49,957 nucleotides of DNA from an uncultured Saprospiraceae bacterium (GTDB lineage: Bacteria; Bacteroidota; Bacteroidia; Chitinophagales; Saprospiraceae), in the NCBI GenBank assembly GCA_937930025.1, contig CALGJW010000044.1, positions 1 to 49,957 of the forward strand, written 5' to 3'. The notes under the pieces are model-generated. The model was not told the DNA's origin. It ran no database searches and saw only the letters and a program-made list of their open reading frames with translations. Shown here in pieces: positions 12,349-46,248 of this stretch. Each line of letters opens with the position of its first letter. The first letter of the stretch is position 1. The position numbers were made by a program, and so were the translations under genes.

Positions 12349-13785
12349 TTATTCAGTAACCATCTGTAGTACCTTGGAGTCTCTCATTATTTCAATGATA
12401 TGATCATAAGGAATTATCTCAGTGGTGAGATTATCCCCAAGCCCAACTGGATGTTCATTTAATCGCTCTATGTATTGGTCAGCCTTTTTTAGCAGCTTTG
12501 GAAAGTTGAAATCAGCCTGAGGAACTTTACACAATAGCCTAATAAACCACTTGGCCCTTTTTGAATTTTCATCCTTCAAATATCTATAGCTGTATTGGTT
12601 GATAGAATTGACTCGTTCAATAAATTTGCTTCTATTGGTAACCATATAGATTAATAACTCTCCAATTAAAATATTAACGTTGGCTCCTTTTTTATCATGA
12701 TGCACAACAGAAGTTTCGTTGAGGTACCTGCCTACCTTAAAACGCTCAAAAGGAGCCTTAAAGGCGCCAATCTCTCGAAGGAAATATAAATAAGCACCGA
12801 TTACTAACCAATATTCTTCTACGACTGCAAATTTGTTTTTGCGATACTCACGATATAGTTGATGCGCTTTTTTGTAATTTTTTGAATGTAGATAGTTAAT
12901 TGCTTTGGTGTATTGAATGACATGCCAGTTAAAACTCTTCTCGACACAATGTTCTTCTGATTTTTTAAGTGATTTGCTGGCCGCTTGATGTTCTTTTAGA
13001 GCAATTTGAGCCACAGCTTTGTTTCTATAAAATATTTGAAGGGCGGTGCCCGTAAGTCCTCGTCTTCCTTTGAGCGTCTGAATAGCACCTTCTGCAGATA
13101 GTTTGGCTAGTGCATATCTGCCTAACTGTAGATCAATTATTATTCTTAAATAATAGTATGAAAAAAGGAAATGAATTGAATCACATTTATATGAATTCAA
13201 TTCTTCTAAATCATTATATAATTCATTATATGGTATTTCTTTGTTTGAGTTGAATACTAAAGCTTGTCTATAGTATATCTCGTCAATCTTTAATTCTGCC
13301 TCAAGATCTTTATAATATTTGTATGCTTGATTTCTGTAATGATCGAAATCTTTTTGTTTTCGATTTAATCCACAACTTGTCATTAGTTTGTGAGCAGCTC
13401 CATAAGCGATTTCAGTATAAGAAGACTCAGTTGCGATTCGAAAGGCCTGAATTAAAGGCTTCCAAGCCAACTCTCGCTTCCCTACATCCAATAATCCTAA
13501 CCCAGCGTTATATTTCCTTCGACATACCCACTTTTCCTCCGATGTCTCTTTTCTATTCATTGGTGGATTAACCATGAACAACGATTGTAGAATTTTTAAA
13601 GTTCGCTGTTTGGTATTGAGGTAATACTGATGACCTTTTTCTTTTGCAAAATCTCTTGAAAGAAGACTTTCGTCTTCATCGTATTTGCCAGATTTCAACA
13701 TGGAAATCAGCTTTCCATTAAGTCCTGTTACGCAATTCAACAAGTTACCATCGATGGTCTTTATATAAAATTTCATCTGATCCAT
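12349..13785 (-). CDS. TPR/helical-repeat protein, divergent from a GG-leader peptide gene
   Basis: This 478-residue protein has no signal peptide and no membrane segment, and is almost entirely alpha-helical. Several segments look like degenerate TPR units: KYNAGLGLLDVGKRELAWKP, YYYLRIIIDLQLGRYALAKL, FYRNKAVAQIALKEHQAASK and TKAINYLHSKNYKKAHQLY. The N-terminal ~100 residues (MKFYIKTIDGN...) are not obviously TPR. No helix-turn-helix or enzyme motif is visible. It is transcribed away from a 39-residue peptide gene that starts 131 bases from its own start. The family is not recognised. By analogy with Gram-positive TPR receptors of secreted peptides it might sense or bind the peptide, but this is only an analogy. 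Confidence 0.85.
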   Translation of the reverse strand: MDQMKFYIKTIDGNLLNCVTGLNGKLISMLKSGKYDEDESLLSRDFAKEKGHQYYLNTKQRTLKILQSLFMVNPPMNRKETSEEKWVCRRKYNAGLGLLDVGKRELAWKPLIQAFRIATESSYTEIAYGAAHKLMTSCGLNRKQKDFDHYRNQAYKYYKDLEAELKIDEIYYRQALVFNSNKEIPYNELYNDLEELNSYKCDSIHFLFSYYYLRIIIDLQLGRYALAKLSAEGAIQTLKGRRGLTGTALQIFYRNKAVAQIALKEHQAASKSLKKSEEHCVEKSFNWHVIQYTKAINYLHSKNYKKAHQLYREYRKNKFAVVEEYWLVIGAYLYFLREIGAFKAPFERFKVGRYLNETSVVHHDKKGANVNILIGELLIYMVTNRSKFIERVNSINQYSYRYLKDENSKRAKWFIRLLCKVPQADFNFPKLLKKADQYIERLNEHPVGLGDNLTTEIIPYDHIIEIMRDSKVLQMVTE

Positions 13786-13847
13786 TCACAACTAATTTCT
13801 AATGTCAAAATATAACTAGATAATTTCTATGGTTTAAATATACGGAA

Positions 13848-13885
13848 TTTGATAAATAAACGCTGGAGCGTCGGGTCTAATTTTG
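13848..13885 (+). promoter_or_regulatory. Promoter of the small GG-leader peptide gene
   Basis: TAATTTTG at 13878-13885 fits the Bacteroidota -7 element TAnnTTTG exactly. The nearest TTTG (13848-13851) is 26 bases upstream, longer than the usual 17-23, so the -33 assignment is weak. Transcription would start near 13892, about 25 bases before the ATG at 13917. Confidence 0.55.
13860..13871. promoter_or_regulatory. Dyad-symmetric site in the divergent promoter region
   Basis: ACGCT-GG-AGCGT is a perfect 5-2-5 inverted repeat. It sits 6 bases upstream of the TAATTTTG -7 element of the small peptide gene, that is, between its -33 and -7 regions, where a bound protein would be expected to block RNA polymerase. 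It is a candidate operator only; no regulator gene is evident nearby. Confidence 0.4.
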
Positions 13886-13916
13886 AGCTATTATACTAAT
13901 TATTAAACGACTAACC

Positions 13917-14036
13917 ATGAAATTAAGCTCCACAAATTTAAAAAAACAGACTTTAACAACCTTTGAATTACTCAAAATAAAGGGAGGATCGGAATTAGAG
14001 GATATTATAATCTATGAGGATTCTCTTCCTGGATAA
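13917..14036 (+). CDS. 39-residue peptide with double-glycine (KGG) leader motif
   Basis: This is a tiny gene encoding 39 residues. The N-terminal 24 residues are a basic, Leu/Thr-rich leader that ends TTFELLKIKGG. This matches the double-glycine leader pattern (hydrophobic residues at -12, -7 and -4 relative to the cut, then GG) recognised by peptidase-containing ABC exporters. The predicted mature part, SELEDIIIYEDSLPG, is 15 residues, strongly acidic, with no Cys. The reality of the gene is supported by a TAnnTTTG element upstream, an ATG start and a 13-bp perfect terminator 24 bases after the stop, making a self-contained ~200-nt transcript. No exporter or modifying enzyme is adjacent; the divergent neighbour is a TPR protein. 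Confidence 0.7.
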   Translation: MKLSSTNLKKQTLTTFELLKIKGGSELEDIIIYEDSLPG

Positions 14037-14060
14037 TCCTAACGACTGCCCTATAAGCTA

Positions 14061-14090
14061 GCGCATCAACTTTTTTTAAAGTTGATGCGC
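14061..14090 (+). terminator. Strong terminator of the small peptide gene
   Basis: GCGCATCAACTTT pairs perfectly over 13 bp with AAAGTTGATGCGC around a four-T loop, followed by TTCTAGTTT. The T tract is modest but the stem is very stable. Nothing else in the region would need it, so it supports a short transcript over 13892-14090. Confidence 0.8.
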
Positions 14091-14323
14091 TTCTAGTTTA
14101 ATATTGACCTTATCTTGTTGATTATATATTTACATTGCACATCTACGTGTTTTCCCTTGTTTTCGGATTCTCCATTTTTGATTTAACAAGGCCCATTCAA
14201 TTCCCTCAAAAAATTGATATTAACCTGACAATTAATAACCACACTTTTTGATAAAGCAACCCCTCAAAATTATCTGTGTCTATTAGGTTGTATTTGATTA
14301 TATAACTTAAAAAATCACGCATC

Positions 14324-29945: not shown

Positions 29946-31346
29946 ATGGAAAATTCTCGATTATATACGCTTATCCGGGCCTTAAGCCGTAGAGAAATAC
30001 GCGAATTGCACACTTTTTTGGTCATTCCAGCGAATAATAAACGACAAGAAGTCAGCCGGTTGTTTGACATTTTAGCTGCTCAAATAGGTAAAAAGAAGCC
30101 TAAGGTTCAAAAAGAGCAGATTTTTCAAAAAATAAAAGGTCCTGATTATTCTTATGATGATCAGCAAGTTCGACTCTGGATGAGTTTTTTGCTCAAAGCC
30201 ATTGAGAAATACTTGCTGCAAGTGGCCTTCCTTAACGATCCAGTAAAATGCAAGATCAAATTAACAGAGATCTACCGAAAGAGAAATTTGCCCAAGCACC
30301 TTGAATATCACTATCGTGAATTAGAACAGTTACAAGAAAAACGCATTCATAGAAATGCCGATTATTACCAAGATGATTTCCAAATTCAGTTTGAACATAT
30401 CCGAGTGGCTTCTGCTCAATCGCGAAGTGCAACCTTGAATCTTCAAAGCATGTCCAACCATTTGGATATCGCATTCATCGCTCAAAAATTAAGACAATCT
30501 TGTTTGGCAATTTCGCATCAGTCTGTTTTTAAGATCGAATATGACTTTGGATTGTTAGAAATGATCATTCTTTATATTGAAAAAAGGGAACTTTTTAAAT
30601 TACCCACGATAGCCGTCTATTATTTTGGATACAAAATATTAACCCAGCCTGAGCAGACCGACTACTTTTTAAAATTTAAAACAGAATTGGTATCCCATAG
30701 TGAAAAATTTCCCGAGGACGAATTAGGCGACCTTTATATTCTCGGCATCAATTATTGTATTAAAAAATATAATGCGGGTGATCGACAATTTCTGGAAGAG
30801 GAGTTTGAATTGTACCAAGAAGGGTTGAAGCAAAATATTTTATTGAAGAATAATCAGCTGTCTCGATACACCTATAGAAACATTGTGACATTGGCCTTGG
30901 TGTTAGAAGCCTTCGGATGGGTGGAAAAATTTATTTATGAATATAAAGACAAGCTGGATGCTAAACACCAAGAAAGCACATTCAGTCTAAGCCTCGCACA
31001 ATTAGAATACTCTCGTAAAAACTATGACGCCGCTTTACAGCTGCTACAAAAGTCAAACTACAAAGAAGTGTTGCTTAACCTCGCAGCCAAAACTGTTATG
31101 CTTAAAATATTTTACGAGCTAGAAGAATTTGATTTATTAGATGCGCACCTTCGAGCCATGCGAATTTTTATTCGAAGAAAAAAGATGATCGCTTATCACG
31201 AAGAAAATTATGTGAATCTGATTCGATTCACTAGAAAGCTAATAGAAGGCAATGCTTTTGATAAAAAAGAAAGAGCAGCTTTGAAGCAAGAAATTCTAGA
31301 GACCAAGGTGGTCGCAGAAAAAGATTGGCTAACAGGGCGAATCTAG
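29946..31346 (+). CDS. Helical-repeat protein paired with a T9SS surface protein (copy 1)
   Basis: This 466-residue soluble protein is almost all helical, with no signal peptide or catalytic motif. Degenerate TPR-like pairs are seen, for example LSLAQLEYSRKNYDAALQLL and AAKTVMLKIFYELEEFDLL. It is clearly homologous, over the full length, to the protein at 44845: KLRQSCL, then a DFGLLE/DPGFLE segment; RYTYRNIVTLAL versus RFTYNNIISTAL; FIRRKKMIAYHEENY versus YIRRKKGLGYHRKNY; and the same EKDWL/ERDWL ending. Each lies head-to-head with a T9SS protein of the same family. It may act in the cytoplasm in regulating or assembling that surface protein, but this is inferred only from pairing. Confidence 0.85.
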   Translation: MENSRLYTLIRALSRREIRELHTFLVIPANNKRQEVSRLFDILAAQIGKKKPKVQKEQIFQKIKGPDYSYDDQQVRLWMSFLLKAIEKYLLQVAFLNDPVKCKIKLTEIYRKRNLPKHLEYHYRELEQLQEKRIHRNADYYQDDFQIQFEHIRVASAQSRSATLNLQSMSNHLDIAFIAQKLRQSCLAISHQSVFKIEYDFGLLEMIILYIEKRELFKLPTIAVYYFGYKILTQPEQTDYFLKFKTELVSHSEKFPEDELGDLYILGINYCIKKYNAGDRQFLEEEFELYQEGLKQNILLKNNQLSRYTYRNIVTLALVLEAFGWVEKFIYEYKDKLDAKHQESTFSLSLAQLEYSRKNYDAALQLLQKSNYKEVLLNLAAKTVMLKIFYELEEFDLLDAHLRAMRIFIRRKKMIAYHEENYVNLIRFTRKLIEGNAFDKKERAALKQEILETKVVAEKDWLTGRI

Positions 31347-31426
31347 CTATAGGGCACCTCCGGCAATTACATTCTTGTTCGATTTAAAAATTTGAAATTT
31401 TTATAAATGAAAAATAAGATTTTATA

Positions 31427-31515
31427 CCTGCCTTCCCAAAGGAACTGCAGGCAGGCTTCATTCTGCCTCAGTCGCGCCCGCCTGCCTTTTATGGCTCATT
31501 TGGTTGGCCGGCAGG
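31427..31515. repeat. Palindromic intergenic repeat (CCTGCC/GGCAGG type)
   Basis: CCTGCCT at 31427-31433 and AGGCAGG at 31449-31455 form one perfect 7-bp stem. CCTGCC at 31481-31486 and GGCAGG at 31510-31515 form a second. The GC content is well above the surrounding DNA. Two such units in tandem, in a 250-base gap between convergent genes, look like a dispersed intergenic palindromic element. A 111-codon frame (31407-31742) across it is not considered real. Confidence 0.55.
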
Positions 31516-31602
31516 TAGCTACGGCTATTCTCGTTCGTTGGGCTTCGTCTAAAATCATATTTTGTCATTTTCGATTCAAGAGACAATTTCCGGAGGTACC
31601 CT

Positions 31603-44844: not shown

Positions 44845-46248
44845 ATGTTTGAAAATCGATTTTTTAGGTGCTTAAAAGGGCTTTCAGCTACAGAATTGTC
44901 GGCTTTTAGACGTTTTTTATCCTCTCCCTACTTCAATTCACGAGGAGATCTACTCTTGGTTTTTGATCAAATGCAGTCAATAATCCAAGAGGATCAACAC
45001 CTTACCAAAGAAATGATGTGGCAAAGGGTGTTTCCGGCAAAACCTTTTGTTGAGAAAGAGCTGAGACTTTTGTTGACCTATCTTCAGCGACTATTCGAAA
45101 AATTCATTGCTGTTGAAAATTTGGTAGGAAACAAGATTGAAATCAAATTGCAAACCGCCTCCTGGTACCGCACCAAGGGTTTTGACAAATTGCACAAGTC
45201 CACCTTGAAGGATACACAGAAGCAATTGGACGGACAATCTTTACGCAACGGAGAATACTTCTATTTCAGTTTTCAAAAGGAATTTGAAAATTACAGAATG
45301 TCTTCTCGATCCAAACCAGACTCCACGACCGATTTTCAAAAAGTGGTAGATAATTTCGATTTGGCTTTTTTAAGCATGAAACTTAGACAGTCTTGTTTAA
45401 TGATGCTCCATGATTCCGTTTACAAATGGGGATTTGACCCAGGCTTTCTAGAACAGGTGTTTGAGTTTTTACAACAAAAAAAATTGATCGATATCCCAGC
45501 AATCAATATTTACTATTGTTGCTATCACATGATCAAATTTCCCAAAGAAGAAGTTTGGTTTCAAAAATTCAAAAAATCATTAGTCGATCATGGGCACTTA
45601 TTTAAGAAATCAGAGATCCAAGATTTGTTTTTGCTTGCCGTCAATTATGGTATCCGAAAAGTAAATGACGGCCATCGAAATTATTTTCATGATATCATGG
45701 ACTTCTATCGCATAGGGTTGAAGAATGAATATCTTATTCAAGAGGATGGATTCCTATCTCGATTCACCTATAATAATATTATCTCCACTGCATTGCAAAT
45801 TGATCAAATAGATTGGGCGGAACAATTTATAGAAGATTGGACGCCAAGATTAGAAAAGCGTTTTCGAGAAAGAATGTATAGTTTTAATATGGCAAAAATA
45901 GCCTACGCTAGAAAGGACTATGATGCGGCCATTCCATTTCTGCAAAGATCAAACTATCATGACCTATTGCTTAATCTTGGAGCTCGAACTTTGTTGTTGA
46001 AAATTTATCATGAACTTGGGGAGTACGATCTTTTGCATTCTCATCTCGATGCATTTAATAGTTATATCCGGAGGAAAAAAGGATTGGGGTATCATCGTAA
46101 GAATTATCGAAATTTGATAAAATACACCAATCGGCTGTTGGCATTAAACCTTGGTGATCGAAAAATGGTCGGTAACCTCAAAGAGGCGATTAACAAGGAA
46201 GAAATATTAACGGAACGAGATTGGTTATTGAGTCGCTTGGCTGGATGA
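44845..46248 (+). CDS. Helical-repeat protein paired with a T9SS surface protein (copy 2)
   Basis: This 467-residue soluble helical protein is a full-length paralogue of that at 29946 (see there for matching blocks). The N-terminus MFENRFFRCLKGLSATELSAFRRFLSSPYFN is another variant of the paralogue's RLYTLIRALSRREIRELHTF. The C-terminal end EKRFRERMYSFNMAKIAYAR and the RRKKGLGYHRKNY block are also shared. No catalytic residues are evident. It is head-to-head with the T9SS protein at 40961, with 248 bases between the starts, the same arrangement as copy 1. Confidence 0.85.
   Translation: MFENRFFRCLKGLSATELSAFRRFLSSPYFNSRGDLLLVFDQMQSIIQEDQHLTKEMMWQRVFPAKPFVEKELRLLLTYLQRLFEKFIAVENLVGNKIEIKLQTASWYRTKGFDKLHKSTLKDTQKQLDGQSLRNGEYFYFSFQKEFENYRMSSRSKPDSTTDFQKVVDNFDLAFLSMKLRQSCLMMLHDSVYKWGFDPGFLEQVFEFLQQKKLIDIPAINIYYCCYHMIKFPKEEVWFQKFKKSLVDHGHLFKKSEIQDLFLLAVNYGIRKVNDGHRNYFHDIMDFYRIGLKNEYLIQEDGFLSRFTYNNIISTALQIDQIDWAEQFIEDWTPRLEKRFRERMYSFNMAKIAYARKDYDAAIPFLQRSNYHDLLLNLGARTLLLKIYHELGEYDLLHSHLDAFNSYIRRKKGLGYHRKNYRNLIKYTNRLLALNLGDRKMVGNLKEAINKEEILTERDWLLSRLAG

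Follow-up and report, generated by a model that had tools for sequence, protein, structure and literature searches.

The peptide gene and its divergent neighbour

The window analysed here, a 49,957 nt stretch of DNA from an uncultured Saprospiraceae bacterium, contains a short open reading frame (ORF) of 39 codons (positions 13917–14036, + strand) that is predicted to encode the 39 amino acid peptide MKLSSTNLKKQTLTTFELLKIKGG-SELEDIIIYEDSLPG. Its residues 1–24 (MKLSSTNLKKQTLTTFELLKIKGG; 13917–13988) have the features of a double-glycine leader: spaced hydrophobic positions, the ending FELLKIKGG with the glycine pair placed before the core, and sub-threshold matches to the Pfam ComC model (E 0.005, residues 11–30) and the NCBIfam BlpC model (E 0.01). 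The predicted mature peptide SELEDIIIYEDSLPG (residues 25–39; 13989–14036 with the stop codon) is 15 residues long, acidic and free of cysteine. Facing it on the opposite strand is a gene for a protein of 478 amino acids (12349–13785, - strand), a tetratricopeptide repeat (TPR)-like member of a family that we designate family a and a candidate receptor for the peptide; the two start codons are 131 nt apart and the genes diverge. A first-pass annotation of this DNA had described such a pair, and the locus is confirmed as real. The peptide is present in a single copy in its own genome, the assembly of which is rated 74% complete. The three large ORFs closest to the pair that were scanned encode a DUF2807 protein, an outer-membrane barrel and an M24 peptidase.

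A candidate -7-like element of the peptide gene, TAATTTTG (13878–13885, + strand), conforms to TAnnTTTG, the Bacteroidota consensus, and this copy is retained in an alignment with a second genome of the same genus (G001); however, the window holds 69 matches to the consensus against 61 expected, which is chance level, and the consensus alone is no evidence. The peptide gene is followed by a strong intrinsic terminator (14060–14091, + strand), although its stem counts 14 pairs and not the 13 originally given; the stretch 14055–14100 folds at -23.4 kcal/mol (z -7.45).

Conservation and selection in a related genome

In G001 the TPR-like protein has an orthologue of 65% identity, the flanking genes on both sides are collinear with those of the window, and a divergent double-glycine peptide, also of 39 amino acids (MKNLSNKLNLEVLTKVELQSLKGG-SEKEDVVITEDLDLG), starts 116 nt from the TPR gene. 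The supposed conservation of the peptide alongside the TPR gene is thus borne out by a partner of the same length and design. The pair also survived a comparison by codon position, the two peptide ORFs differing at 15, 14 and 24 sites in positions 1, 2 and 3 respectively, with a pN of 0.36 and a saturated pS of 0.79 (pN/pS 0.46). Four other peptide pairs gave pN/pS values of about 0.24–0.51, and an excess of third-position differences was present in all five. Judged from these alignments, the pair is conserved under selection at the protein level, to an extent that is more than chance.

These same alignments bear on the proposal that the small ORFs are untranslated by-products of conserved promoter DNA. 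An intergenic block between the two genes (13811–13856, assigned to neither strand), a candidate shared regulatory region, agrees between the two genomes at 40 of its 46 positions (mismatches tallied by eye) and is better conserved than the peptide ORF itself, which is identical at 64 of 117 sites. The third-position excess in every pair and the pN/pS ratios below 1 speak against this proposal, as does an amino acid motif (below) that is retained although the DNA has diverged and that accompanies two receptor families, and we consider this proposal very improbable.

A search with the peptide alone across 60 genomes returned two matches at E ≤ 0.001, the query's own copy and C7 in G001; the remaining two double-glycine homologues in G001 had E values of 0.004 and 0.14. 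Since the peptides diverge this fast, neighbourhood scanning was required. The expectation that homologues of the peptide would always lie beside a homologue of the TPR protein failed: this was the case for one of the three double-glycine homologues in G001, and the other two lie tail-to-tail with genes of a second helical-repeat family, designated family b.

Family a and its short upstream ORFs

Homologues of the TPR-like protein were found in 37 of the 60 genomes, including its own, with up to 11 copies per genome. A scan of named genomes, for which a tighter alignment (A2) was used, the 18-row alignment having proved too diverse, gave 548 family a relatives. Eighty loci were retained, of which 55 bear the title Saprospiraceae or Saprospirales, and the others include Lewinella, Phaeodactylibacter and Flavilitoribacter labels. 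In a phylum-wide draw, family a was detected in 20 of 296 genomes (E ≤ 1e-10), and 13 of these 20 were assigned to the 'same phylum', which in the tool's grouping means outside the class of the window. Two loci with the same match statistics, L146 and L147, carry the titles Saprospiraceae and Kordia, which points to mislabelling or contamination of a metagenome-assembled genome.

Under a first, stricter filter, 16 of the 87 genes in the named-genome loci had a candidate peptide. Besides the double-glycine type, many family a genes have a divergent upstream ORF with a short hydrophobic leader, as in Flavilitoribacter nigricans (MVAVIAFLLSIGIISSPDQATPELIEQYETQVVGTDLDSM). All 36 matches of an HMM of this leader (E < 0.05, within 700 nt of family a genes) were upstream and divergent, the seeds of the model having been drawn from that position itself. 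A third type, ending in VIIIDITG[VA] or nearly so, lies on the same strand beside or between tandem receptors. No recognised peptide accompanies 90 of 154 family a genes. At three loci a divergent short ORF that by eye resembles a helix-turn-helix (HTH) protein occupies the place of the peptide upstream of a family a gene (L069, upstream of 1502; L093, 2947; L094, 6763). A 71 amino acid ORF at L053, roughly 519 nt upstream of 5612, combines a signal-peptide-like start with the segment VIIIIETDCC, and a second motif ORF (DLVIIEDIDM) lies nearby.

A common C-terminal motif

Although the leaders of these peptides differ (double-glycine, hydrophobic or other), their C-termini have a motif in common, I-[IV]-x-x-D-[ILM]. 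ORFs with this motif occurred upstream and divergent in 38 of 150 unique family a receptor regions, against 10 of 150 upstream on the same strand, 11 of 146 downstream on the same strand and 3 of 146 downstream and convergent. Dinucleotide shuffles gave means of 2.5–3.1 regions per position (2.6 for the upstream-divergent one), with a slightly different de-duplication that left 153 and 149 regions where 150 and 146 were observed; regions with less than 400 nt of flank were excluded throughout, and near-identical receptors were partly retained (e.g. L063, L168 and L169). The count for family a is partly circular because the pattern was derived from such peptides: it was built by eye from family a peptides and loosened once L214–L243 had been inspected. 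Loci L244–L303 (n = 60) were unseen during this tuning, and there the motif ORFs numbered 10 at the 3'-convergent position, two divergent upstream, one upstream on the same strand and none downstream on the same strand; two of the 10 (L285 and L294) look like chance.

A second helical-repeat family

That 3'-convergent position is the one favoured in family b, which was found in 51 of the 60 genomes and reaches 25 or more copies in one of them. Motif ORFs converge on the 3' end of 17 of 87 family b genes (shuffle mean 1.3) and occur at the other three positions in 3 of 88, 1 of 88 and 0 of 87 cases; 10 of the 17 fall in the 60 unseen loci. Selection by leader only gave the same picture, with nine ORFs 3'-convergent to family b genes against one, two and one elsewhere, and eight of the nine end, by eye, in an acidic stretch rich in isoleucine and valine. 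For family a, leader-only selection found four upstream-divergent ORFs (three with the motif) against one and two elsewhere. The scanned members of both families have no Pfam or NCBIfam match above cut-off. In a single hhalign comparison the two families scored a probability of 83% (E 8.5e-6), so they may be remotely related, bearing in mind that helical repeats can inflate such scores.

In the genome of the window a motif peptide was found at the 3' end of none of the 12 family b genes located; most copies of both families are thus without a recognised peptide. Two family b members lie in the window itself (29946–31346 and 44845–46248, + strand), and a 3' motif peptide was found at neither; a 20 amino acid motif match divergently upstream of the copy at 44845 looks like chance. 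The intergenic region at 31425–31520 contains repeated CTGCC/GCAGGC segments.

Short hydrophobic ORFs adjoining a larger gene might also suggest a toxin–antitoxin-like unit in which the TPR protein holds the peptide in check. The divergent or convergent orientation, the acidic C-termini, the double-glycine leaders and the large number of receptor paralogues for which no peptide was recognised all fit such a unit badly, and we give it very little credence.

Receptor phylogeny and a possible exchange of leaders

On a FastTree phylogeny of 176 receptors, which came with long-branch warnings, the peptide labels required 39 changes compared with 62.8 after shuffling, and none of 200 shuffles was as low. 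In these labels, the 'GG' assignments of L110 and L322 are false and that of L066 holds only if an internal ATG is used; for L061 and L155 the peptide is 959 and 668 nt away, respectively, so that their receptors were scored 'none'; and chance will account for part of the 16 'MOT' labels. Peptide class thus follows the receptor tree. A starred clade of 14 rows is peptide-less and contains the second family a copy of the window's own genome. The three of its loci examined (L108, L054 and L083) lie between queA-like and cmk-like genes, with an additional ORF intervening at L083; in this conserved order the peptide-less copy looks as if it were a member of the core genome with a different role.

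Receptors with double-glycine peptides occupy no fewer than three distinct positions in the tree (the window with L049; L060; L066 with L067), two of which are close to receptors with hydrophobic-leader peptides, while the C-terminal motif persists. L060 groups with L140 and L141, both of the hydrophobic type, in a three-row set with a support of 85, and L066/L067 share a starred set of five rows with L056/L082, again hydrophobic. Given such differing leaders on close receptors and the persistence of the motif, our reading is that the export leader may be exchangeable on a functional C-terminus. At loci outside the class of the window, a hydrophobic N-terminus is encoded upstream of 6 of 17 family a genes, these six ORFs having also served as HMM seeds, and the C-terminal motif was found in none of the six. 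Exchange of leaders does not explain these differing C-termini well, and the C-terminus may therefore not be the sole functional part.

It could instead be that the peptide is never secreted, and that it stays in the cell or its membrane, where it tethers or inhibits the TPR protein through its C-terminus. Nearly all of the hydrophobic leaders listed lack the basic residues that normally mark a signal peptide, and the N-terminal segment is itself conserved, including in distant Bacteroidota with other C-termini, both of which favour an intracellular pair. Against this, some close relatives of these receptors have peptides with double-glycine leaders, the mark of export, at the same position. 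We regard a purely intracellular role as unlikely.

Candidate export machinery

Double-glycine leaders serve export by ABC transporters with a C39 peptidase domain. Two such transporters are encoded in the genome of the window and one in G001, and they were present in 25 of the 42 genomes searched. All eight genomes with an observed double-glycine motif peptide (G000, G001, G016, G017, G018, G025, G029 and G032) have one, compared with 17 of the 34 others, a co-occurrence that was tallied by hand afterwards and is to be read with the fact that larger genomes have more of both. No double-glycine peptide of this family was recognised adjoining a C39 transporter (L211–L213). In G001, the region L211:6708–12633 encodes a C39 transporter, an HlyD protein and an 802 amino acid protein with a lantibiotic-dehydratase domain, and no precursor was recognised there.

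The peptide could also be the precursor of a bacteriocin or other ribosomally synthesized and modified peptide (RiPP), with the TPR protein as its regulator or immunity factor: double-glycine leaders are typical of such precursors, and the transporter of G001 adjoins the lantibiotic-dehydratase-like gene. In line with a remark made at the first pass, however, no modifying enzyme is encoded by the three nearest large ORFs scanned and the core is without cysteine, so the peptide does not qualify as a lanthipeptide or RiPP precursor. The 20 cores of the double-glycine type that were collected are all cysteine-free, with net charges from -8 to 0, and each of numerous dissimilar peptides has a receptor-like gene as its neighbour. 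We hold a bacteriocin or RiPP to be distinctly unlikely.

Predicted fold of the candidate receptor

AlphaFold2 modelled the TPR-like protein of the window (pLDDT 89.2, pTM 0.86) as an all-helical superhelix and the protein of L140, a locus of Flavilitoribacter nigricans DSM 23189, likewise as a helical superhelix (pLDDT 90.0, pTM 0.83). The label 'TPR' given at the first pass agrees with this predicted fold, but the best Pfam TPR match had an E value of only 0.24. In VIA-align comparisons the best match of the window model was Rap Phi3T (Z 19.5, rmsd 4.3, 295 residues aligned), with NprR at Z 18.0 and AimR at up to 16.9; the unrelated LGN (17.9) and MalT (17.2) were close behind. The L140 model matched a Rap-CSF complex best (Z 18.6), with Rpn6 and LGN at 17.1. 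Among the matches listed, receptors of the RRNPP family took ranks 1–8 for the window model (Z 19.5–18.0) and ranks 1–10 for that of L140 (Z 18.6–17.2), a lead of only about 1.5 Z over other TPR folds (LGN, MalT and Rpn6). The models therefore predict a TPR superhelix of the Rap/NprR/AimR type, slightly ahead of other TPR folds, and the divergent, conserved 39 amino acid ORF would be the adjacent propeptide gene of 10–100 amino acids that is the second hallmark of an RRNPP pair.

Membership by sequence failed: RRNPP models were absent from the Pfam and NCBIfam profile matches. Foldseek gave no match for the window model at E ≤ 0.001, and the best match of the family a profile in the PDB was a weak one to kinesin light chain TPRs (E 0.0023). 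The N-terminus is helical in both models; a profile of the first 100 residues had one weak match among solved sequences, a kinetochore protein (E 0.97), and no DNA-binding domain could be named from this search. PHROGs gave no phage link (best E 0.51 for the window protein and 0.17 for that of L140), PADLOC gave at best HerA on L140 (E 0.035), and Rfam likewise nothing useful.

A proposed peptide–receptor module

Given that many paralogues have comparable short ORFs next to them and that Rap and NprR are the nearest solved folds, the earlier suggestion of an RRNPP-like pair, an exported peptide and its TPR receptor, is supported in two respects, the association of the genes and the resemblance to peptide receptors. 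That the genes for peptide and receptor belong together is close to certain; that they stand in a receptor–ligand relation is likely; and the pair may plausibly serve exported quorum signalling. Our main reading, to which we assign a probability of roughly 0.6, is that the locus is a self-contained peptide–receptor module that operates in an RRNPP-like manner in a Gram-negative bacterium. Counting against it, 90 of 154 family a receptors have no recognised peptide, the C-terminal motif is missing in distant Bacteroidota, sequence searches find no RRNPP relative and the lead in fold is small. What the sequences show directly is the conserved pair, the recurring association, the motif common to the C-termini, the differing leaders of related pairs and the C39 transporter genes. 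The steps that we infer, from export, cleavage and re-import to binding, output and density sensing, would run as follows. A C39-peptidase ABC transporter encoded at another place in the genome would export the 39 amino acid propeptide and cleave it behind the glycine pair, so that SELEDIIIYEDSLPG or a truncated C-terminal part of it is set free. Either this peptide or a fragment taken up again by the cell would lodge in the groove of the superhelix of the divergent TPR protein. The receptor would then change its output, by binding DNA through its N-terminal helices or, in the manner of Rap, by binding a partner protein. Paralogous modules with different C-terminal peptides would constitute separate channels. 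The pair is RRNPP-like in anatomy, and we do not file it as a member of the family, given the failed sequence membership and given that output and binding are only inferred.

A wider proposal, to which we give somewhat less than even odds, is that Saprospiria, and patchily other Bacteroidota, possess a peptide language read by intracellular receptors, with two expanded receptor families, interchangeable leaders, C-terminal signals of 8–10 residues and many parallel channels in one genome; if true, Gram-negative bacteria would have an RRNPP-like world of their own. The recurring pairs themselves suggest an undescribed peptide signalling system, which would extend TPR-receptor peptide signalling to Gram-negative bacteria. 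Candidate signals would follow for the Saprospiria, which are common in activated sludge and in the sea, as would a possible function for the two expanded helical-repeat families, whose scanned members have no Pfam or NCBIfam assignment above cut-off.

Comparison with known systems

In the accessible portions of the literature on peptide signalling via cytoplasmic TPR receptors, it is a Gram-positive trait wherever the host group is stated, and the available text on RRNPP_detector (PMC10075063) describes its application to Firmicutes and viruses. No description of pairs such as these was found in searches of open-access PMC papers. No paper among these contained both 'Saprospir' and 'double-glycine', and the combination of Saprospir-, quorum sensing and tetratricopeptide was met in one, which in its accessible part concerns marine blooms.

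With the double-glycine pheromones ComC and BlpC the peptide shares its type of leader, with a weak leader match; these pheromones act on membrane histidine kinases, whereas the neighbour of the peptide here is a helical-repeat protein. AimR of the arbitrium system (AimR-AimP) is among the best fold matches (Z up to 16.9), but PHROGs links none of the receptors searched here to phage. Rgg of the streptococcal Rgg-SHP system has an HTH domain. The likeness to that system lies in the peptides: in the accessible text of one study (PMC3150281), the activity of SHP resides in the C-terminus of the propeptide, DIIIIVGG, an aliphatic run with an acidic residue, and the C-termini here are similarly aliphatic and acidic (IIIYED, VVITED, IIIED), with the difference that aspartate precedes the run in SHP and the acidic residues follow it here. 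Rap-Phr and NprR-NprX of the Bacillota resemble the window pair in having the nearest TPR superhelix fold and an adjacent short propeptide. They differ from it in phylum and in the lack of any detectable sequence similarity; the gene order here is divergent or convergent and the leaders are double-glycine or short hydrophobic ones; and while RRNPP peptides are exported by Sec (or by PptAB for SHP), the double-glycine leader would imply a C39 transporter.
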